The notes under the pieces: generated by a model
Databases searched by the model: none
What the model was told of the DNA's origin: nothing
Seen by the model: only the letters and a program-made list of their open reading frames with translations
Shown here: positions 14,163 through 62,935 of the stretch, piece by piece
Numbering within the stretch: position 1 is the stretch's first letter
Layout of the letters: every line of letters starts with the position of its first letter
Made by a program: the position numbers and the translations under genes
Assembly (NCBI GenBank): GCA_016649715.1
Contig: JAENXC010000011.1
Coordinates: 1-64,000 of the forward strand
DNA length: 64,000 bases
Source of the DNA: Flavobacteriaceae bacterium
GTDB lineage: Bacteria > Bacteroidota > Bacteroidia > Flavobacteriales > Flavobacteriaceae
Direction of reading: 5' to 3'

Positions 14163-16568
14163 CTAAAAATGTGCCGTTAACGCAAGTATAAAATTCCTTC
14201 CCGCTCCCGAAATACCGGAACTGTATGGGCGGTAACGTTGGTCTGTCAAGTTCTCTATGCCACCGCTAACGTCAAAAGTATCGGTCATTTTGTACAATGC
14301 CTTAAAATTAAGAGTGTACCAGGACGGGGAATAGGGATTCCCATTTTTGTCTAAAGCATAAAACTCTGTTTTGTCTTTTTCCCCTTCGGGAAGGTCGTCA
14401 AAATCACGCTTAGCTTGATAGTTAACATTCAGCTCCATACTCAATTTGTTGGCCATGTAGTTTAAACGGGAAACGCCGAAAAATGGAGAGGCGTGTTGTG
14501 ATGGGCTTGTTTTGCCATTGTCCAGTTCCTCTTCCCCTTTTTGGAAATTCACATCGGTTGAAAAACCAAAACCTTTTGGCAATTTTACCTCCACGCCAGC
14601 CTGAACCCCGTAAACTTTTGCAATGGCAGCGTTTTGGATGGCCTGTACTTGGCTCAATTCACCTTGGTACATAATGCTGTCCAAACCGTTTAATTGAAAA
14701 TCACGGCGCACAAGGGCGTCTTTAAGATAGGTATAATATCCTGTAATGTCAACTTTCACAACATCCCCAAAAACCTTGGCAATTCCCAGATCGGCATTAT
14801 AGGCGTATTCGGGTTTTAAATCTGGATTGGGGACAACCACACTTCCAGGCTCAGAATCAAATACTTTTCCAAGATCGTCTACATTTGGTGAACGGAAGGC
14901 CGTGCCCAAATTGGCACTGATAACCAATGAACTATCTGGCCGATAAACACCACCCAAACTTCCGGTAAGCGCGCCATTGCTCAAATTTGCTTCGGTAAAA
15001 GGAAATGGATAAAATGTAGTATCAAATTCGGCATCGAGCAAAATATGGTTGTAACGTGCGCCGGCGCTCAAGGTAAATTGGTCCGAAACCTTAAATTCGT
15101 CAGTAACATAAGCCGCTAACGATTGCCATTTTGCTTGCGGATAGCGAGCGGGACCCGGTTCAGAAATACCCGTAGAAATATCTGTCAACTCACCTTCCGA
15201 ATTTACATCGTCCAACACGTATTCAATGCCATAGAAAAAAGTGTTTTTTGCGCCCGTAGCTTTTTTAAAGTCAAGATTTACAGAATATGCAGCTACTTCC
15301 TCACTTTGGGTGTTGCGCTCGGTTTTATTAAGAGATCTATCAATTCTGCTCTCTTCAAACCATTGATGTGCAAGACGAAGACTCATTTCATCAAAAACGG
15401 AATTGTTGGCGTTGTAGCTAACATTTAGATTGTTCATCATCCAAATCTGTGGGCCGTAATTCCATTCGGCGTAACGGGCGGTTCCATTGCGAACGCGTGT
15501 GTGCCTGTCATATCTTCCGTAAGAAGAAGTTTCTGAGTAGTGGAAACCGTATTGAAAATCCCAACGATCGTTTGGTTGAAAACGGATTTTCTGCATCATG
15601 TTTATTTGGGAATAGGCCGAAGGAATCTGCAACAATTTATCTTCTTGCGTGATTATAACGTCCGTACTGTCCTGTCTTTGCACGTAATAATCTTTTATGT
15701 AATCCTCGGGGCCGTGGCTTCCTTGGCGCAAGTTGTCATAATCCCAAGAAGTGATGCTGGTTAAAAAGACCCATTTTTTAAAGCCCAAATTCACATCAAA
15801 ATGGCCTGTTTTTTCTTTGTTGGCGGAAGAATAGCGAACATTTGCTTTTCCTGTGATAAGTGGTTTTTCGTTAAGGGAAAGACTTGGTGTAAGTGTTTGA
15901 AAACTCATTACGCCGCCAATGGCATCACTTCCGTAAATTACAGAACCGGGGCCAAAAAGCACCTCCGTATTTTCTACGGCGAAGGGATCTATATTGATTA
16001 CATTCTGAAGGTTTCCGGAACGAAAAATTGCAGTGTTCATCCGAACGCCATCGACGGAATAAAGCAACCGACTGGTAGCAAAACCGCGTATCATCGGGCT
16101 TCCGCCGCCCTGCTGACTTTTTTGGATAAACACTTTCCCCGAAACGCCTAAAAGGTCGGCCGCCGTTTGTGGGTTTTGCAACGCTACTTCCCGAGCCGAA
16201 ATGGAAATGATTTTTGATGGTACATCATCACTGCTTTGTCGCCAACGTGAACCTGAAATCACCACTTCGTCTAAACTAAAATTGGAGTTTTCGAGTGAAA
16301 TTACAAAGCTATCTGCTTTCAATTCGGAATAACTTTTTATAAGTGTTTTATGGCCTAGACTGCGTATTTCAATCTTTTCCACATCCTTAAAAGCTGAAAT
16401 GTCCGCTTGTCCCTTGGCGTTTGTTGTGGCGTAAAGTTTTGAATTTGCACTGGTAAGTGTTGCCAGTTCTACAGGCTCATCGGTTTGTTGATCTTTGATG
16501 GTTATTGTTTGGCCGTAGGAACTACCTGCAAAAGCCAACAATAACCAAAGTATGAGTGCTTGTTTCAT
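14163..16568 (-). CDS. TonB-dependent outer-membrane receptor, HmuR-like
   Basis: An 801-residue receptor. The start at 16568 (MKQALILWLLLAFAGSSYGQT) gives a proper signal peptide; the frame opens upstream at 16607. A carboxypeptidase-regulatory-like N-terminal domain (residues 20-95) precedes the plug (DEVVISGSRWRQSSDDVPSKI, TAADLLGVSGKVFIQKSQQGGGSPMIRGF) and a 22-strand barrel ending in an aromatic residue (ALTAHF). The plug sequence GVRMNTAIFRSGNLQNV and FGPGSVIYGSDAIGGVM resembles haem/haemoglobin receptors of the HmuR type, so iron or haem uptake is the best guess; the substrate is not proven. It lies downstream of a small membrane-protein gene on the same strand. Confidence 0.9.
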   Translation of the reverse strand: MKQALILWLLLAFAGSSYGQTITIKDQQTDEPVELATLTSANSKLYATTNAKGQADISAFKDVEKIEIRSLGHKTLIKSYSELKADSFVISLENSNFSLDEVVISGSRWRQSSDDVPSKIISISAREVALQNPQTAADLLGVSGKVFIQKSQQGGGSPMIRGFATSRLLYSVDGVRMNTAIFRSGNLQNVINIDPFAVENTEVLFGPGSVIYGSDAIGGVMSFQTLTPSLSLNEKPLITGKANVRYSSANKEKTGHFDVNLGFKKWVFLTSITSWDYDNLRQGSHGPEDYIKDYYVQRQDSTDVIITQEDKLLQIPSAYSQINMMQKIRFQPNDRWDFQYGFHYSETSSYGRYDRHTRVRNGTARYAEWNYGPQIWMMNNLNVSYNANNSVFDEMSLRLAHQWFEESRIDRSLNKTERNTQSEEVAAYSVNLDFKKATGAKNTFFYGIEYVLDDVNSEGELTDISTGISEPGPARYPQAKWQSLAAYVTDEFKVSDQFTLSAGARYNHILLDAEFDTTFYPFPFTEANLSNGALTGSLGGVYRPDSSLVISANLGTAFRSPNVDDLGKVFDSEPGSVVVPNPDLKPEYAYNADLGIAKVFGDVVKVDITGYYTYLKDALVRRDFQLNGLDSIMYQGELSQVQAIQNAAIAKVYGVQAGVEVKLPKGFGFSTDVNFQKGEEELDNGKTSPSQHASPFFGVSRLNYMANKLSMELNVNYQAKRDFDDLPEGEKDKTEFYALDKNGNPYSPSWYTLNFKALYKMTDTFDVSGGIENLTDQRYRPYSSGISGAGRNFILALTAHF

Positions 16569-49005: not shown

Positions 49006-51784
<2,779 letters not shown>

Positions 51785-53747: not shown

Positions 53748-55889
53748 CTATTTAGCCAAAGTCAACTCATCAATAATATGGCCGGCGCCAGCATACTTAT
53801 CAATCAGAAACAAAACGTAGCGAATATCTACGTTGATGCAACGTTGCAGTTGGTCGTCAAAAATAACATCGCCCGCCATTGCTTCAATGTTACCGTCGAA
53901 AGCTATTCCTATCAATTCGCCTTTTCCGTTCAATACAGGGGAACCAGAGTTTCCGCCAGTAATATCGTTGTCGGTCAAAAAGTTTACGGGAAGGTAGCCG
54001 TCTTTGTCGGCATATTGTCCAAAATCCTTTTTCTCATATAGGTCTATCAACTTTTTGGGCATATCAAATTCAGCATCGCCGGGTTGGTATTTTGCAACGG
54101 TGCCTTTTAAGGTTGTGTAATAATTTTTGTTGGCATCATTGCGTTTGTCGGCGGGTAGGGCAATCACTTTTCCGTAGGTAAGTCGTAATGTGCTATTGGC
54201 ATCTGGATAATATTTCTTGTCGGGGTTTTGCAGTCGCATTCCCTGGACCAACAATCGGAAAGCACGGTCGTAATCATTGTCCCATTGCTTTTCCTCTTCA
54301 GTTTTGTATCGGTAGCGCGTCAACAAATCTCTGGAAAGCAACAATAAAGGGTCGTTCTTAAAAGTTTCCGCATCCGGATTTGCCAAAAATGCTTCCAGTT
54401 TTTCCTTTGATTCAAAAACGCTGTTTTTAAAAGCGGTATCCAAATAATTGTTCCAGCCCATATCGGTTTTATTATTTTCAGTGGCAAGTTTTGCTACCAT
54501 TGGCGCAACATTTTCAGCCTTGGTGGAATACAACTTCAACTGTGCTGCCAAAATATCCTTTTCCAATGGAATGTAAATCCCTTCGTACAAATCGTTGATT
54601 TCAGCATCCAACTTAGGCTGCAATTCTGCTTGCTTTGCTTCGTTTTGTTGCAAATAATATTCAATATCGTTGCCCAAACGGTAGGGTAGTGTTGCCATTC
54701 GGGTGCGCAGCAAGAGGCTCAAATAATTGTTGTGGCGACTTATCTCGTTGGTCTTTTTGTAATATCCATTGATTACAGGAATTACGTTCGCATACTTTTC
54801 ATTTCCCTTTTTGGAGGCCCATTTCTGAAAGGCCTTTTCGTCCTTGCTTTTGCTTTCGGCAGTTTTGTGTTGTTTCAGCGCATCAATCATTCCCTGACGG
54901 TTTTTCCAGTAGTTGGCAATTCCAGCGTAACTGGAGGCATAGTCAAGCTTCACTTGCTGATCTTTGTCCATATATTTCTTCATCACATCCATAGATGTTT
55001 TTGAAGCCTCAACATAAGCCGGATATGCAAATTCCACATTTTGCGCAATACCACCGGCAGGCATCCAGCGGTTGGTTCGGCCCGGATAGCCCAAAATCAT
55101 TGCGAAATCGTTTTCCTCAAAACCTTTCAAGCTTGTGGTTAAATGATATTTAGGTTTCAATGGCACATTGCTTTCGGAATATTCCGCAGGATTTCCATCT
55201 TTATCGGCATAGACCCTAAAAAGTGAAAAATCGCCTGTATGTCTTGGCCATTCCCAGTTGTCGGTATCGCCACCAAATTTTCCGATACTTGCAGGAGGTG
55301 TTCCCACCAAACGCACATCATTATAATCTTGATACACGAAATAGTAAAACTCATTGCCGCTGTAAAATGACTTCACGGAAACGGTATATTTTCCGCCCTC
55401 ATTGTTTTCCTGCTCAATCTTTGCAATCTCACGGTTTATGGTTGCTTCACGCTCTGCTTCGGTCATTCCATCGTTCAGCAAGCTCAAAATTCGTTTTGAA
55501 ACATCATCCATTCTAACAAAGAAGCGAACCGATAGACTTTTCGGTTTTAGTTCTTCGGAATTGTTCCCCGCCCAAAATCCGTTGGTGAGGTAATCGTTTT
55601 CAGCCGTTGAAAGTTCGGCTATGGCGTCGTAGCCACAGTGATGGTTGGTCAAGACCAAACCAGTGTCTGAAATTATTTCCGCAGTACATCCACGGTTGAA
55701 TTGCACAATGGCATCCTTAAGGCTGGAATGGTTAACGCTGTAAATTTCATCAGGCGTAAGCTGAAGCCCCATTTTTTGCATATCGCGGTAGTTCAACCGT
55801 TCAATGTGCATTAAAAACCACATACCTTCATCTGCCTGTGCAGGCAAAACGAACGCAGCGAGGATAAGGGAGAGAATAAAATTTTTCAT
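53748..55889 (-). CDS. S46 dipeptidyl peptidase (DPP7/DPP11 family)
   Basis: A 713-residue exported serine peptidase that removes dipeptides from peptide N-termini. Signal peptide MKNFILSLILAAFVLPAQAD, then EGMWFLMHIERLN. The catalytic His is in TNHHCGYD (about residue 84), the Asp is in the GGDTDNWEWPRHTGDFS block, and the Ser in GGNSGSPVLNGKGELIG. The position after FD near the end is Gly (AFDGNIEAMAGD), which in this family points to DPP7-type preference for hydrophobic residues rather than the Arg of DPP11. A -7 box TATATTTG lies at 55961-55968. Confidence 0.93.
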   Translation of the reverse strand: MKNFILSLILAAFVLPAQADEGMWFLMHIERLNYRDMQKMGLQLTPDEIYSVNHSSLKDAIVQFNRGCTAEIISDTGLVLTNHHCGYDAIAELSTAENDYLTNGFWAGNNSEELKPKSLSVRFFVRMDDVSKRILSLLNDGMTEAEREATINREIAKIEQENNEGGKYTVSVKSFYSGNEFYYFVYQDYNDVRLVGTPPASIGKFGGDTDNWEWPRHTGDFSLFRVYADKDGNPAEYSESNVPLKPKYHLTTSLKGFEENDFAMILGYPGRTNRWMPAGGIAQNVEFAYPAYVEASKTSMDVMKKYMDKDQQVKLDYASSYAGIANYWKNRQGMIDALKQHKTAESKSKDEKAFQKWASKKGNEKYANVIPVINGYYKKTNEISRHNNYLSLLLRTRMATLPYRLGNDIEYYLQQNEAKQAELQPKLDAEINDLYEGIYIPLEKDILAAQLKLYSTKAENVAPMVAKLATENNKTDMGWNNYLDTAFKNSVFESKEKLEAFLANPDAETFKNDPLLLLSRDLLTRYRYKTEEEKQWDNDYDRAFRLLVQGMRLQNPDKKYYPDANSTLRLTYGKVIALPADKRNDANKNYYTTLKGTVAKYQPGDAEFDMPKKLIDLYEKKDFGQYADKDGYLPVNFLTDNDITGGNSGSPVLNGKGELIGIAFDGNIEAMAGDVIFDDQLQRCINVDIRYVLFLIDKYAGAGHIIDELTLAK

Positions 55890-56038: not shown

Positions 56039-58765
56039 TTAAGCTTTGGGGAGCTTCCCCAATAACGGCATAGTGTATTCATTATAAAGCGAAAACAAAA
56101 ACTCAATCCGTCCCGTTTCATTTGGAAACGGCTGGGGTCGATAACATAAATCTACCGCCTTGTCCAACGCTTGGTGCGCTTTTACCAATGCGGGCGGCAT
56201 GGTTAGCGGGTCATACAAATCTGCAAGGCTGCTCTCTGGAAAACTGGCACGCACAGCCAAAACCTTTTGCGCCTTTTCTTCTACAGACTTTTTGTTCTTT
56301 TCGCTTGGGCCCTTGGGCCAGGGGTAGTTGTTGTAAACGATTGTGTTTGAATATCTGAAATCGCTCTTTATACGTCCACAAGTATATTTTACCCAAGCCA
56401 TGTGCATTATTGACGTTAATATTCCAAATTCATATAAGGAAGCTTTATCAATAGCCGAACAACTGTCTCCAATAATATTTTCCGAACTGAAAAAGCCCAT
56501 TGGAATATATCTTCTATTTTCTGAAGAATGCCGAGGTACAAGTATAAAACTATTTTTTGGCTGCCTGTTCTCTGTAAATAAAGTAGGAAAATCAGCCCAT
56601 TTTTTAGTTGAAGCTTTTGAACTTGCAAGTCGCATTTCTTTCACTTTTGAAATCCTTTCCAAAACCAAAGGCATACTCCTCAATTCGTGTGCAGATATAT
56701 CTGTTAGCCAAAGACAATATCTTTTTTTGTTATGAAGAAACTCATGGGCGCTTATAAAGGGTTTTATGTATTTTTCCGAAAGAGGGTTCTTTGCAATCAA
56801 TTCATCTTTTTCTTCTTCATCCAATAGTAAATTACCTCCATCCGTGGGTTGACTTCCTTTTACCATTGGTGAAACATCACAAAGAGGTTTGGTTCTCTTA
56901 TCAATAAATACATTTGGAGCATCCACTAAATAAGCGTTTATATTCTTAGCTTTTATTTCGTGGGGCTCTCCCTTTATATCTTCATATTCATAAATATATT
57001 TGTCGTTAGTATCAAAATTTGCAAAACCAACAATCACACAGTAAACGGCAGCATTTCCTCTTGCCTCATTCGTCCATCTAAAGGTTTGGTGTGCAAAGTG
57101 AATTTGAATATTAAAAGTATTAAAAAGTGAATTCCATAAAATAGCCGTTTGTTCCCCCTGTACTATGGAATTGGTGGAAACAAAAGCAGCTTTTATTGGA
57201 GTATTTTGAATGTATTTGGCCGCTTTAAGATACCAAGAAGTAACATAATCCAAAACCCCAGCCCCTTTAAATCCTGCAAAAACAAGCTTCATATCTTCCT
57301 TCTGTTCCTTGGTTTGCAATGAATACCCATAAAACGGCGGATTCCCCAAAATAAAACTCAACTCCGTTTTCGGCACCACAGTTTCCCAATCTACTCGTAC
57401 CGCATTGCTGTTCAATATGGTCGCTCCCTTGCGCAAAGGCAAACGGGCGTAATACTGTCCAAAAGTTTCGCTCACCAGCAGGTTCATCTGGTGGTCCATC
57501 AACCACATAGCCACCTCTGCAATCCGTGCAGGAAACTCGTCGTATTCTATTCCGTAAAAGTTATCAACGTTTAGGTGCAAAATCTGGTCTATGCCTGTCA
57601 CTTGCTGAGTGCCGTATAGTTTTTTGAGCACTTCCAGTTCCAACAATCGCAATTCGCGATACGTAATAATCAAAAAGTTGCCACAGCCGCAGGCAGGGTC
57701 CAAAAATTTTAAGCTCCCCAAATGGTGGTGAAATTCATTTAACTTTTTACTATTTCCCTTCACCTTGTGGAACTCCTCCCACAAACCGTCAAGAAAGAGC
57801 GGTTTAATAAGCTTCAGTATGTTCTTTTCGCTGGTGTAATGTGCTCCAAGATTGCGCCGTTCCTGTGGATCCATAACACTCTGGAACATGCTCCCAAAAA
57901 TAGCGGGACTTATCTTGCCCCAATTCAGTGAACTGCATTCCAGCAGTATCTCGCGCATCCTGCTATTAAAAGACGTTATGGGCAACGGCTCCTCAAACAA
58001 CTTCCCATTCACATACGGAAAGGAATTCAAGTGTTCGTCTAGATTTTTGGAGCGTTTCTCTCTGGGTGTATTCAGCGTTTGGAAAAACTGCGCCAGCAGT
58101 GCTCCCAAGTCGCTGCCATCCTCATGGGTCTTTACGTCTATAAATTCTTTAAAAGTGTCTTTTTCAAATATTCCTGTATCATCTGCAAAGAGTGCGAACA
58201 AGAGCCGCACCAAAAACACCTCCAGTGGGTGGCCCTCATAACCGCTTTCCTCCAGCTTATCGTGCAGCTTCCCCATCAGCTCCGCCGCCTTTATGTTTAC
58301 AGGGTCTTCCTCCTTAAAACTCTTTTTCTGGTAACCCGCTATAAACCCAAACAGCTTTATGTTTTTATGAAACTCGGTCAGAGGAAACTCGTGGGTTTCA
58401 TTTTCTTCAAGGTCATAGAGTTTAAAGCGCTCAAAGTCGCTAACCAAAATATACTTGGGCAGTTCGTGTTCCTTAATTCCGTGAAAATAATCTGTAGCCT
58501 GCTCAAAAGCTGCGTCCAGATCGCGGCCTTTACTTTTGTGTTCCACCAACAAGGTGCCCTTCCAAAAAAGGTCTATAAACCCAAAGTTATTGTTCAGTTT
58601 TTTAACAGGCTCCTCAAAAGTGGCAAGTCTGCGCCGCGTAATGCCGAAGACATTAAAGAAGTCGTTCCAGAACGTATCCTTCTCCGCCCGTTCACGGCTC
58701 TCGTCCTTCCATTCGTTGGTAAATTTTAATGCGCGGTCTTTTATTTCGTTCCAGCTTAGGGCCAT
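56039..58765 (-). CDS. MmeI-like single-chain restriction-modification enzyme
   Basis: A 908-residue protein with the layout of type IIL/IIG enzymes. The N-terminal nuclease has D-(n)-ExK in FIDLFWKGTLLVEHKSKG. A helical spacer follows, then a gamma-class N6-adenine methyltransferase: motif I DPACGCGNFLIITYREL, motif IV GNPPFYGYS. The C-terminal third (about residues 640-820) is the probable target-recognition domain. One polypeptide thus both cuts and methylates. The next gene upstream, a membrane ATPase, is 102 bases away and on the same strand. Confidence 0.88.
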   Translation of the reverse strand: MALSWNEIKDRALKFTNEWKDESRERAEKDTFWNDFFNVFGITRRRLATFEEPVKKLNNNFGFIDLFWKGTLLVEHKSKGRDLDAAFEQATDYFHGIKEHELPKYILVSDFERFKLYDLEENETHEFPLTEFHKNIKLFGFIAGYQKKSFKEEDPVNIKAAELMGKLHDKLEESGYEGHPLEVFLVRLLFALFADDTGIFEKDTFKEFIDVKTHEDGSDLGALLAQFFQTLNTPREKRSKNLDEHLNSFPYVNGKLFEEPLPITSFNSRMREILLECSSLNWGKISPAIFGSMFQSVMDPQERRNLGAHYTSEKNILKLIKPLFLDGLWEEFHKVKGNSKKLNEFHHHLGSLKFLDPACGCGNFLIITYRELRLLELEVLKKLYGTQQVTGIDQILHLNVDNFYGIEYDEFPARIAEVAMWLMDHQMNLLVSETFGQYYARLPLRKGATILNSNAVRVDWETVVPKTELSFILGNPPFYGYSLQTKEQKEDMKLVFAGFKGAGVLDYVTSWYLKAAKYIQNTPIKAAFVSTNSIVQGEQTAILWNSLFNTFNIQIHFAHQTFRWTNEARGNAAVYCVIVGFANFDTNDKYIYEYEDIKGEPHEIKAKNINAYLVDAPNVFIDKRTKPLCDVSPMVKGSQPTDGGNLLLDEEEKDELIAKNPLSEKYIKPFISAHEFLHNKKRYCLWLTDISAHELRSMPLVLERISKVKEMRLASSKASTKKWADFPTLFTENRQPKNSFILVPRHSSENRRYIPMGFFSSENIIGDSCSAIDKASLYEFGILTSIMHMAWVKYTCGRIKSDFRYSNTIVYNNYPWPKGPSEKNKKSVEEKAQKVLAVRASFPESSLADLYDPLTMPPALVKAHQALDKAVDLCYRPQPFPNETGRIEFLFSLYNEYTMPLLGKLPKA

Positions 58766-58867
58766 GGAATTAGAATTAAATTTTAAGGTTTATCTTCTTT
58801 TGATAAAAGTAATAAAGTTTTTAGATGGAATCGAGCACTATGATAGTAAGTATAGAAATTAAAAAGC

Positions 58868-61810
58868 TTAAGTATCCAAATCGGAATTTTTAATATTTTC
58901 CAATACACCCGTCTTCTTAATATCTTCCATGGTAATTATTTCGTGGTATATGTGGATGTTAATTTTTTCAATAACTACTAATAAGTTCTGTAAGCCAGCT
59001 AATTGGTCTATTACCTGTTCATCTTTAAAAGAATTATATAAAATCTTTTTTAAAGATATATCCAACAGAATAAGATTGCTTAAAGGATGGCTAATTTGAT
59101 AGATGTTATCCAGTAAATAAGAAAAGCTTAGATAATACTGAGGAGAAATATTAAATGTGTCTATTATACGGATTTTAAGTTTTTCAACTATTTTTGGAGT
59201 TATACTCAAATTGAATGGATATATTTCTTTTAAAAACATACTAGTTGGATAATAGTCTTTTGCCCCAATGAAGAAATGCGCGCCATAATAAACTAAATCA
59301 TATCTTTTAAGTTCTAAATAATTTTTAATAAATATTTCCTCATCGGAATTAAAATTTGTTTCTTGTTTTAATCTTTGGAGGTATAGCAAATTTACTAAGG
59401 TGGGAGTTGTGGTGGAATGGTTTAAATTCAATTTTTTAATAACTGAAATCCAATCTATTTTTTCAGCTAAATATTTTTGTTTCTCTTCATCCAGTTTGGA
59501 TAATATTATACAAAATGGCCTAACTTGATTAGATTCAATCATTCTTGAGCAATTTAAAAGCCAGTCCGTATCGATAAATTTTAAAAGCTCTTCCTTTTTA
59601 TCTCCCAGGGCAATTATAAAATCAGCTAATTGATTTAATTGATTTACCGTAGCTGTATTAGCTGCTTTTCCCAGAGCTTCATAATCAAATTCTTTGATAA
59701 GCCCCTCCTTTTGGTCTCCTAGGGCAGTTATAAAATCAGATAATTGAGATAATTGATTTACTGTAGCTGTATTAGCTTCTTTTCTCAGAGCTTTATAATC
59801 CAATTTTTTAAGAAGCTCACCCTTTTTGTCTCCTAAGGCAGTTAAAATAGCCTCGAATTGGGCAAAATTAACCACCTTGGCTGTATTAGCCACTTTTCCC
59901 AAAGCTCCATAATCTAATTTCTCGAGTAATTTTTCCTTTTCACCTCCCAAAGCAACCAGAATTTCAGCCAGTTGTTTTAATTGATTTACCTTGGCCGTAT
60001 TAGCTTCTTTCGCCAAAGCTCCATAATCTAATTTTATGTTTTTCTTTTCGTTTCCCAAGGCAACCAGAAAATCAGCGAGTTGTTTTAATTGATTTACCTT
60101 TGCTTTATTAGCTGCTTTTGTCAATACCTCAAAATCAAATCTTTTAATGAGTTTTGTTTTCTCTTTTCCAAACACCTTGAGAAATTGACCTATTGATTGA
60201 AAACTACCAGATGGTGCAAGAGATATTTGAGAAGCTATAGTATCAAAATATTCATCTGTCAATAGTTCTTGAAAAAACAAGCTATGGTTTTTTTTGATTT
60301 CATTTAGAAGAAAAGGATATACATGCAGTTGTTCAGGAATAAGGTTGGTGACAAAGTTTTTGATCCAAGTTTTGTTTTCCTCAAGAAAATAATATTGATG
60401 ATTTCCAAGCAAACTGAAATAAATGCCAAAATGAATACTGTCATTATAATTGTCAGTTAACAATATCTGAGAAGCATTTATTAATTTTTTTATAAAGACT
60501 TCGTCTTCGTCCAACTCTTCAATAATAGTTCTAACAATTGAAATAGACATATTAATATGAGGTGCTTTTAAAAAGCTTCTTTTCAAACTGGTTTTATTCT
60601 CAATAATCAAAAACCTACCCTTGTCCTGTGATGCCAAATCAGCTATAATTTTGGCAGGTGTATAGTCTATGATTGCCTTATTATAAGCAACATTAGCCAC
60701 ATCTCCCAAAAGATCCATAAATTCAGTTTGAGTAATATCCTTTTCTCTAGTAATAATGTTTCTAACCGAAAACAAAAAAATAGCTAAAATTAAAATATCC
60801 TGTTCTGTTCTATTTTTGCTGAGCTTTTTTAATAAATCGAGTATCCTCTTTTCACCTTCCGTTGCAATAAAATTAAAATGCCAAGGATCTTTAACTTTCT
60901 TATCGTCTACTAATTTTATTGCCTTAGGTAAACCTGGACATTTTTCATCAATTGCACTTTTTATAATGAGGTTATCTGTATAGTATAAATCACTTAAAAG
61001 TTTTGGATAAAAACTTGCAAATTCAACAGTTATTAAATTAGAAGCATCCGAGTCTATTTCTTCAAGATAATTGGTGTTTATCCAAATAAATTTTCCGTTT
61101 AATTTTTCTTTGGCCTCTTCCTCAAACTCATATCTTAAAACATTTTCAAAAGGAAGCTTATGTGCATCGTCTATCAAAATTATTTTCCGTTTACCTCCTT
61201 TCAGATAATCCAATTCTTCAAGGATTGCATCTTTCTCTTGCTTGTCATTGATTTTTGCTAAATCAAGTGCGTAAATCTTGCATTTCCTTCTAAAAAGAGT
61301 TTTTCCGAAAATTTTATAAGGTTTTTTATATCTGTAAAGAGAGTGATAGGCTAACATAGACTTCCCTTCACCAGGTCGTCCGTTTTCCCATACAAAACCT
61401 TCGGTATCAAGTTTCTGGTAAATTAGTTCAATTTCGTCTGGCACAGGTGCTACGTGTACAAAATAGGGCTCTGTTTTTTCTGTTTCCAAAATCCCATTCA
61501 AGGCTTTTATTATAACATTTGCAGTGGGTTCCTTAAAATCAACTCGGTTAAAGTATTTTCGCCCTAATGTTTTGTTGATCGTGTAAAAAAACCAGCTAAA
61601 TAAAAGTAAGCAAATGCCTATTGTGAAGACATATATAAAAGTAAGTATTAAAAAAGTTTTCAAACTTTTTTCATCCAACCCAAAGTAAATTTTTATCCCT
61701 GGAATAATCAAATCATTGAAAAAAATCAAAACAATAGCCAAGCCCAACCCAATTGCTAAATTCAATGCATTGACTTTCTTATTTAAAACTCTTCGGGTCT
61801 TTCTTTTCAA
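58868..61810 (-). CDS. Membrane-anchored P-loop ATPase with 38-residue repeats, probable defence protein
   Basis: A 980-residue protein. Two N-terminal transmembrane helices (about residues 17-38 and 49-75) are followed by a P-loop NTPase domain with Walker A GRPGEGKS (about 143-150) and Walker B KIILIDDAHK (about 208-217). Helical domains follow to about residue 545. Residues of about 553-745 are five tandem repeats of 36-38 residues with the recurrent words DYGAL, ANTAKVNQL and ALGDKKEELL. A helical C-terminal region ends the protein. The layout recalls STAND-type defence ATPases with a sensor repeat domain. It lies directly upstream of the MmeI-like gene. The gene is visibly A/T-richer than its neighbours, which suggests recent transfer. 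Confidence 0.8.
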   Translation of the reverse strand: MKRKTRRVLNKKVNALNLAIGLGLAIVLIFFNDLIIPGIKIYFGLDEKSLKTFLILTFIYVFTIGICLLLFSWFFYTINKTLGRKYFNRVDFKEPTANVIIKALNGILETEKTEPYFVHVAPVPDEIELIYQKLDTEGFVWENGRPGEGKSMLAYHSLYRYKKPYKIFGKTLFRRKCKIYALDLAKINDKQEKDAILEELDYLKGGKRKIILIDDAHKLPFENVLRYEFEEEAKEKLNGKFIWINTNYLEEIDSDASNLITVEFASFYPKLLSDLYYTDNLIIKSAIDEKCPGLPKAIKLVDDKKVKDPWHFNFIATEGEKRILDLLKKLSKNRTEQDILILAIFLFSVRNIITREKDITQTEFMDLLGDVANVAYNKAIIDYTPAKIIADLASQDKGRFLIIENKTSLKRSFLKAPHINMSISIVRTIIEELDEDEVFIKKLINASQILLTDNYNDSIHFGIYFSLLGNHQYYFLEENKTWIKNFVTNLIPEQLHVYPFLLNEIKKNHSLFFQELLTDEYFDTIASQISLAPSGSFQSIGQFLKVFGKEKTKLIKRFDFEVLTKAANKAKVNQLKQLADFLVALGNEKKNIKLDYGALAKEANTAKVNQLKQLAEILVALGGEKEKLLEKLDYGALGKVANTAKVVNFAQFEAILTALGDKKGELLKKLDYKALRKEANTATVNQLSQLSDFITALGDQKEGLIKEFDYEALGKAANTATVNQLNQLADFIIALGDKKEELLKFIDTDWLLNCSRMIESNQVRPFCIILSKLDEEKQKYLAEKIDWISVIKKLNLNHSTTTPTLVNLLYLQRLKQETNFNSDEEIFIKNYLELKRYDLVYYGAHFFIGAKDYYPTSMFLKEIYPFNLSITPKIVEKLKIRIIDTFNISPQYYLSFSYLLDNIYQISHPLSNLILLDISLKKILYNSFKDEQVIDQLAGLQNLLVVIEKINIHIYHEIITMEDIKKTGVLENIKNSDLDT
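59575..60165 (-). repeat. Intragenic 114-base repeats encoding the 38-residue units
   Basis: Five consecutive DNA segments of about 108-114 bases with obvious sequence similarity occupy this part of the ATPase gene. Each encodes the words DYxALxKxANTAxVNQLxQL and ALGxxKxxL. Sequence similarity at DNA level points to recent duplication or gene conversion. Confidence 0.85.
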
Positions 61811-61973
61811 TATTAAATATTCTTTGTTTTAAAATTGATTAAAGTTTGCTCTAAGTAACTCCTTTTTATTTTGTTATAAAAATAATAGCTAAGAATTCCC
61901 ATTCAATGTTTTAAGATACAAATAATTCCGTGAAATTATCAAATGGCAGAACTGCCTACAAACCCATTATTCA

Positions 61974-62723
61974 TTAACCATTCGTAACAATCCCTATTCC
62001 CACACTACCCTTAGAAAACGACTTATAAAACCTATCCGGTAACTTCTGGTAAAACTGCACCTTTACAACCCCAAACACTGCACTCCCTTTCTTGGGCTTT
62101 TCGGGTACTTCCAGCACCAACTCCCGAGCTTCGTCTCCTTGTTCTACAATTAAAGTCCCTTCATTAAGAATAAACCGAAAGGCGTTACTCTTCAAATCGT
62201 ACTCCAGCACCCCATACTGCATAAAAAAATGCGTGGTCCCTTTCGGGAACTTCAACCTTTTTGGGTCAAAGGCAACAGCTTTCAAAACCCCGGTTTTAGT
62301 GTCAAGATCAGCAACTGGCCCCAAAATATCCCTTATGCCGGGCCCTTTGGTAAACTTAAACTCTCGCAGAAGCTTCCGCCCCATATCGCAACAAAGCCCT
62401 TTCCCTACAGCTCGCTGCCCCTCTGGCGCCTCATCTAAGGTTTTAATCTGCATAAAGAGCTTCATCAACCTTCTGTGTAACGTCCCATCTCCCAAGTCAT
62501 TAAAAAACGGAAATAGTGCCTCCTTAAAATCCTTGTTGAAAGCACTGCAAAGTGCAAGTTCCTTATTACTATCCCGAACCCCTTGCATTTTTGGATTATT
62601 TTTTATACTTTCGGCAGTAAATCCACCACCTGCTTTCCGTTGGCGCTGCTTGCCATCCTGAATGTAGTAGTTAATACCGTTATACGTTCCTTTAATCGGT
62701 GGAAAATTATCATCTGAAGCCAT
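61974..62723 (-). CDS. Unknown soluble 249-residue protein
   Basis: A 249-residue protein without signal or membrane helix. The N-terminus MASDDNFPPIKGTYNGINYYIQDGKQRQRKAGGGFTAESIKNNPKMQGVRDSNKELALCS contains a Lys/Arg- and Gly-rich patch. The middle DAPEGQRAVGKGLCCDMGRKLLREF and the C-terminal beta-rich part (ALTLIVEQGDEARELVLEVPEKPKK) follow. I do not recognise the family. It is preceded by an 11-base-period repeat array and lies upstream of the membrane ATPase on the same strand. Confidence 0.75.
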   Translation of the reverse strand: MASDDNFPPIKGTYNGINYYIQDGKQRQRKAGGGFTAESIKNNPKMQGVRDSNKELALCSAFNKDFKEALFPFFNDLGDGTLHRRLMKLFMQIKTLDEAPEGQRAVGKGLCCDMGRKLLREFKFTKGPGIRDILGPVADLDTKTGVLKAVAFDPKRLKFPKGTTHFFMQYGVLEYDLKSNAFRFILNEGTLIVEQGDEARELVLEVPEKPKKGSAVFGVVKVQFYQKLPDRFYKSFSKGSVGIGIVTNG

Positions 62724-62800: not shown

Positions 62801-62935
62801 GTATGCCGACTATATGCCGACAGTATGTGGACTATATGCCGATGCTATGCCGTATTTCCTCTTAGCTTCCTTCTAGTTTCCTTCTACTTTCCTTCTACTT
62901 TCCTACTATCCGCCTTCTATCTGCCTTCTATCCTA
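62801..62935. repeat. 11-base-period tandem array
   Basis: About eleven degenerate units of 11 bases follow one another. The first block has units like TATGCCGACTA; the second block is pyrimidine-rich with CTTCTACTTTC/CTTCTATCTGC-like units. The period is one DNA helical turn. It lies between the unknown gene and the next FG-GAP gene. Confidence 0.8.

Follow-up and report, generated by a model that had tools for sequence, protein, structure and literature searches.

The genome of a Flavobacteriaceae bacterium carries, within the 64,000-nucleotide stretch analyzed here (the window), an insert of approximately 5.9 kb that holds exactly two genes: one encoding a membrane-anchored, STAND-like P-loop NTPase (referred to below as the ATPase), and the other an MmeI-family restriction-modification enzyme. 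We consider it reasonably probable that these are two independent accessory defence genes, which are neighbors at a variable intergenic site. An earlier note on this DNA had described two open reading frames on the same strand, 102 bases apart, and had grouped them as a single two-gene defence candidate. The arrangement was confirmed: both frames are open on the minus strand, the ATPase gene at 58868..61810 and the MmeI-family gene at 56039..58765, separated by a spacer of 102 bp (58766..58867; 23.5% GC). As regards defence, each of the genes is probably a defence gene, the one by its family and the other by the element that carries its homologue, but the evidence presented below argues against their forming one system.

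The insert was delimited by comparison with the uninterrupted locus of two relatives (G022 and G005), in which the genes flanking it in the window are adjacent, about 230-260 bp apart, and neither the ATPase nor the MmeI-family gene is present. These flanking genes are (i) a core gene encoding an S46, Dpp7-like peptidase (53748..55889, minus strand), whose upstream region contains the right border, and (ii) P249 (61974..62723, minus strand), a gene of unassigned function that is multicopy within the genus, and at whose 3' end the left border falls. Alignment placed the borders near 61985 and 56043 (approximate insert, 56043..61985), the latter position being the MmeI stop codon; past both borders, local alignments go on weakly and with many gaps. 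Close relatives of P249 in three further genomes (G003, G021, and G026) were unusable, as the stretch contained a contig end or other genes and no Dpp7. A Dpp7-type peptidase was present in all 28 of the genus genomes, with a close orthologue (79-89% identical) in 25 besides the window genome (G000). Neither the ATPase nor the MmeI-family gene appeared in the fetched flank upstream of Dpp7 in any of these 25 genomes (approximately 1.5 kb per flank; shorter in three, at 277, 648, and 313 bp). The gene upstream of Dpp7 varies across the genus, being P249, an FG-GAP-like gene, a gene for a secreted-type protein, or another, and the site is thus a variable spot. The P249 family is itself dispersed, with matches in 24 of 59 genomes (the window's included), all within the genus, and up to nine matching stretches in one genome; P249 of the window matched neither Pfam nor NCBIfam at E<=0.1.

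Base composition distinguishes the two inserted genes. The GC content of the ATPase gene is 0.306, low relative to its neighbors at 0.42-0.45, while that of the MmeI-family gene (0.417) is host-like, close to those of Dpp7 (0.426) and P249 (0.441); GC3 is 0.26 for the ATPase gene and 0.446 for the MmeI-family gene. Because these compositions differ so strongly, we infer that the two genes probably arrived separately; one joint delivery by a mosaic element is the less likely course. In the 102-bp spacer we found no terminator-like match, and a single promoter-like match (9 of 12 positions; 58878-58849, same strand) precedes the MmeI-family gene, although such counts stood at the level of shuffled sequence. 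The shared direction, the short gap, the single insert, the lack of a terminator-like match in the spacer, and a promoter-like match at chance level only fit co-transcription and perhaps joint arrival.

The product of the MmeI-family gene is an apparently complete single-chain enzyme of 908 amino acids. All five of the MmeI Pfam domains (MmeI_N, helical spacer, methylase, target recognition domain [TRD], and C-terminal domain) occur in order in this one chain, each above its curated cutoff, and the PADLOC type IIG model scored 1253 bits. The enzyme resembles MmeI itself (type IIG/IIL; PDB 5hr4) over its full length (residues 1-899; 1095 bits), sharing its five domains and its catalytic motifs. 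The nuclease motif (D65-x9-E75-x-K77) and the methylase motifs (DPACGCGNFL at residue 356 and GNPPF at 474) are intact, and we take these to mark a PD-ExK nuclease and a gamma-class N6A methylase. Unlike MmeI, which has E806 and R808 at the corresponding places, the window enzyme carries K800 and D802 in its TRD (residues 615-818). In the code worked out for MmeI (PMC4081073), the last base of the target is set to C by E806/R808 and to G by K806/D808, and the target of the window enzyme should therefore end in G; our prediction is confined to that base. The same review cites MmeI among the enzymes that have no need of a separate methyltransferase. The family is clear, and its membership suggests that the gene encodes a self-sufficient restriction-modification enzyme that probably serves in defence: the protein would methylate one adenine of an asymmetric target, needing no partner, and would cut unmethylated DNA about two turns away.

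MmeI-like genes were found at E<=1e-180 in 37 of 395 phylum genomes, the window genome counted, and the closest relatives (74% and 71%) were in two genomes, G867 and G846, that share only their phylum with it. Among the 58 relatives searched besides the window genome, only distant MmeI-like enzymes were found, in four of them. Those of three congeners (G001, G012, and G016) were rejected as orthologues, as they are only 35-39% identical and are followed by other genes. At three congener loci (L044, L045, and L046), a distant MmeI-like enzyme is followed in the same order by genes for proteins of approximately 650-680 and 400 amino acids, a multi-gene context that differs from that in the window.

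The ATPase comprises 980 amino acids, counted from a TTG start codon whose assignment is uncertain. By hydropathy, it begins with two hydrophobic segments (residues ~11-45 and ~48-82; 61565..61780, minus strand), which likely form a transmembrane (TM) hairpin. The NTPase core that follows (residues 85-330; 60821..61558, minus strand) contains a Walker A motif (GRPGEGKS, residue 144) and a Walker B motif (IILIDDAH, residue 210), features common to many P-loop classes, as well as the blocks FVHVAPVPDE (residue 117) and DPWHFNFIAT (residue 308). At residue 293, 149 residues past Walker A, lies the sequence GLPKAIKLV, which resembles the STAND GxP motif of the winged-helix region. Five tandem repeats of 114 nt (38 amino acids; 59579..60142, minus strand), of which the four other copies are 73-85% identical to the reference copy, lie inside a predicted alpha-solenoid. 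The P-loop ATPase with two TM helices and repeats that the earlier note recognized was thus upheld, but its description of the array as C-terminal needs correction: the repeats span residues ~557-744, and about 236 non-repeat residues follow them. When the single sequence was modeled with AlphaFold, confidence was confined to the solenoid (about residues 501-780; block-mean pLDDT 63-86, versus 48.7 for the whole protein).

The ATPase is rare. Sequence searches covered 59 relatives, 395 class, 397 family, and 395 phylum genomes, and profile searches covered 92 genomes of the homologue's family (profile A2) and 117 phylum genomes (profile A3). These overlapping sets, with handles up to G1200, amounted to 1,455 genome searches, run behind a first-look filter that lowers sensitivity, and every set except the 92-genome one includes the window genome. 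At E<=1e-5, the ATPase was found in only two of the searched genomes, G000 and G1006; none of the 58 relatives besides the window genome had it. A housekeeping ATPase was rejected, since the 27 other genus members searched gave no match. The suggestion that both genes are unlike housekeeping genes was borne out, and we regard them as accessory. In searches on MmeI, STAND, nSTAND3, HEC-01, and bacterial NLR topics, no matching paper described the pairing or the ATPase in its title or the start of its abstract; PMC10907252, which deals with hypermutated STAND sensors, has no bearing on the family of this ATPase. Our best reading is of a rare, undescribed, and uncharacterised membrane-anchored STAND-like NTPase.

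The homologue in G1006 is a protein of 1224 amino acids, 31% identical to the window ATPase over residues 9-504 and 37% identical over the NTPase core. It also has two hydrophobic segments, and the two proteins have in common the blocks FVHVAPxPDE, GxPGEGKSxLAYH, DDAH, and DxWHFNFIAT; at the GxP position, the homologue's sequence is degenerate (GGIDEAKRSV). The repeats differ strongly between the two, with a period of 38 residues in the window ATPase, where the copies are near-identical, and of 39 residues in the homologue, where they have diverged.

This homologue is carried on an integrated element of approximately 10 kb (L153:4891-14955), which also encodes a tyrosine integrase, located at the end opposite the homologue, a Rep-like protein, and a pair of proteins matching PADLOC HEC-01A (E 3e-151) and HEC-01B (E 6e-81). 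The element is bounded by a direct repeat of 19 bp with copies at L153:4891 and 14937, the second of which falls at the end of a tRNA-Leu gene (14938-15026); a direct repeat at the end of a tRNA gene is the usual signature of tRNA integration. The measured genes of the element have 30-35% GC, except the Rep-like gene (44.5%), and the four measured flanking genes have 46-50%; the homologue itself, at 0.299, is thus low in GC relative to its neighbors, as is the ATPase gene in the window. The HEC-01 pair, a PADLOC candidate system that here consists of AAA_21 and DUF4276 proteins, ends 213 bp before the ATPase homologue; its proteins differ from the ATPase, and they are absent from the gene content of the window locus. 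Location on a mobile element, beside a defence-candidate pair, makes a defence role for the ATPase likely, an association that, with one homologue known, rests on one locus. For the same reason, the ATPase might instead serve another accessory function of mobile elements, such as element maintenance or a stress response; we consider this unlikely, given the 213 bp between the homologue and HEC-01A/B, an architecture that resembles antiphage receptors, and the strong difference in repeats between the homologues, which suggests a changing sensor.

The earlier note had looked to a conserved neighborhood of the ATPase and MmeI-like genes, and here the comparison went against it. Of the 41 MmeI places besides that of the window, we compared all but G995:C182, which is close to the end of its contig; each of these 40 was taken with up to ~8 kb per side, or less at contig ends. 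Neither tblastn nor profiles A2 and A3 detected the ATPase (E<=1) at any of these 40 loci or at the four loci with distant MmeI-like enzymes. By open reading frame size, strand, P-loop pattern, and hydrophobicity, the neighbors of MmeI differ from locus to locus, except among close relatives that have a context in common: L079 and L080, for example, or L098, L100, and L102, which are from one genus and have a gene for a ~450-aa protein upstream. Conversely, an MmeI query against 27 kb around the G1006 homologue returned only a 30-residue chance match (E 0.74), and G1006 was not among the matches to MmeI at E<=1e-180 in the 395 phylum genomes, in which we take it to be included. With the ATPase at 0 of 40 MmeI loci, and MmeI at 0 of 1 homologue loci, a conserved ATPase-MmeI system was rejected and, as far as tested, the pairing appears local to the window genome.

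A two-gene defence system, in which the two proteins cooperate (for instance, with the membrane STAND-like ATPase backing up or guarding the MmeI enzyme and bringing about cell death upon failure or blockage of restriction), would account for two co-directional genes 102 bp apart, with no terminator-like match in the spacer, as the sole content of one insert, and for the relatives set, in which the 58 other genomes lack the ATPase and only four have even a distant MmeI-like enzyme. We nevertheless judge such a system very improbable in view of the loci just described, the disparate GC and GC3 of the two genes, and the capacity of MmeI to work without a separate methyltransferase (PMC4081073). 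We favor, rather, two defence genes acting independently; that a restriction-modification gene adjoins the ATPase in one genome is no evidence of a system.

How the ATPase would act is suggested by its resemblance to STAND proteins, whose layout, as set out in PMC12169576, consists of an N-terminal effector, a central NTPase, and a C-terminal sensor. The window ATPase appears to fit this plan, with the putative two-TM hairpin in the effector's place. Bacterial NLR-related (bNACHT) proteins follow the same plan (PMC12169576), but the window ATPase has no NACHT Pfam match or recognizable enzymatic effector, and has membrane segments instead. Avs5 (AVAST type 5), which combines Sir2 and nSTAND3 with helical repeats at the C-terminus (PMC12931631), is alike in having a P-loop NTPase followed by helical repeats and in its nSTAND3 domain, to which the ATPase is weakly similar. 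The two differ at the N-terminus, where Avs5 has Sir2, absent from the Pfam matches of the window ATPase, and the latter has the likely hairpin; they differ also in that the ATPase scores below the Pfam cutoff for nSTAND3 and matches no PADLOC model.

For the NTPase core of both homologues, no Pfam family scored better than nSTAND3 (PF20720), which gave 14.8 bits (E 0.024) for the whole window ATPase, 20.2 bits (E 5e-4) for its NTPase fragment, and 25.2 bits (E 1.5e-5) for the G1006 protein, and neither protein reached the gathering cutoff of 27.2 bits; we do not assign the ATPase as a member. AAA_22 and AAA also match the two homologues weakly, and the model of residues 85-530, built from a two-row alignment, had a mean pLDDT of only 33.5. 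These observations leave some room for a defence gene of another mechanism, either one of a P-loop class other than STAND, such as AAA or a helicase-like class, or a membrane-tethered switch whose hydrophobic segments may serve only as an anchor. To us this seems a doubtful prospect, as nSTAND3 ranks above the other Pfam matches in both proteins, and as GLPKAIKLV and the order of TM segments, NTPase, and repeats fit the three-part STAND layout (PMC12169576). The PADLOC models and a search of PDB sequences gave no match to the window ATPase, and its sole NCBIfam match, to a glycanase model (E 0.003; 17.1 bits, the cutoff being 350), was taken as chance.

With the STAND-like reading, which we prefer, the fit to the plan leads us to a model in which a trigger derived from the phage would bind to the C-terminal alpha-solenoid, part of which consists of near-identical 38-aa repeats. 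ATP would then drive oligomerisation of the NTPase core, packing the N-terminal two-TM hairpins together so as to disturb the inner membrane, and this disturbance would abort the infection. On this reading, the ATPase probably acts by abortive infection.

It is quite possible, although we advance it tentatively, that the ATPase is the first member of a family, as yet undescribed, of membrane STAND-like antiphage receptors borne on integrative defence elements; with similar reserve, we propose that the parts of such a receptor are a two-TM effector, an nSTAND3-like switch, and an amplifying solenoid sensor of 38-39-aa repeats. The boldest form of the idea, in which this receptor is here also coupled to MmeI and, as its backup, kills the cell once restriction has been overcome, strikes us as a long shot. 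Should the ATPase prove to be a phage receptor, bacterial STAND immunity would gain a membrane-acting branch that lies outside the family libraries scanned (Pfam, NCBIfam, and PADLOC), and the contrast between near-identical repeats in one species and diverged ones in another would allow repeat-sensor change to be tested directly.

Two other features of the window were observed. Upstream of P249, positions 62801-62933 contain degenerate tandem repeats of 11/22 bp. At 49006-51784, two adjacent genes overlap by 20 bp; from their translations, we presume these to be tandem paralogues of the tryptophanase/tyrosine phenol-lyase type.
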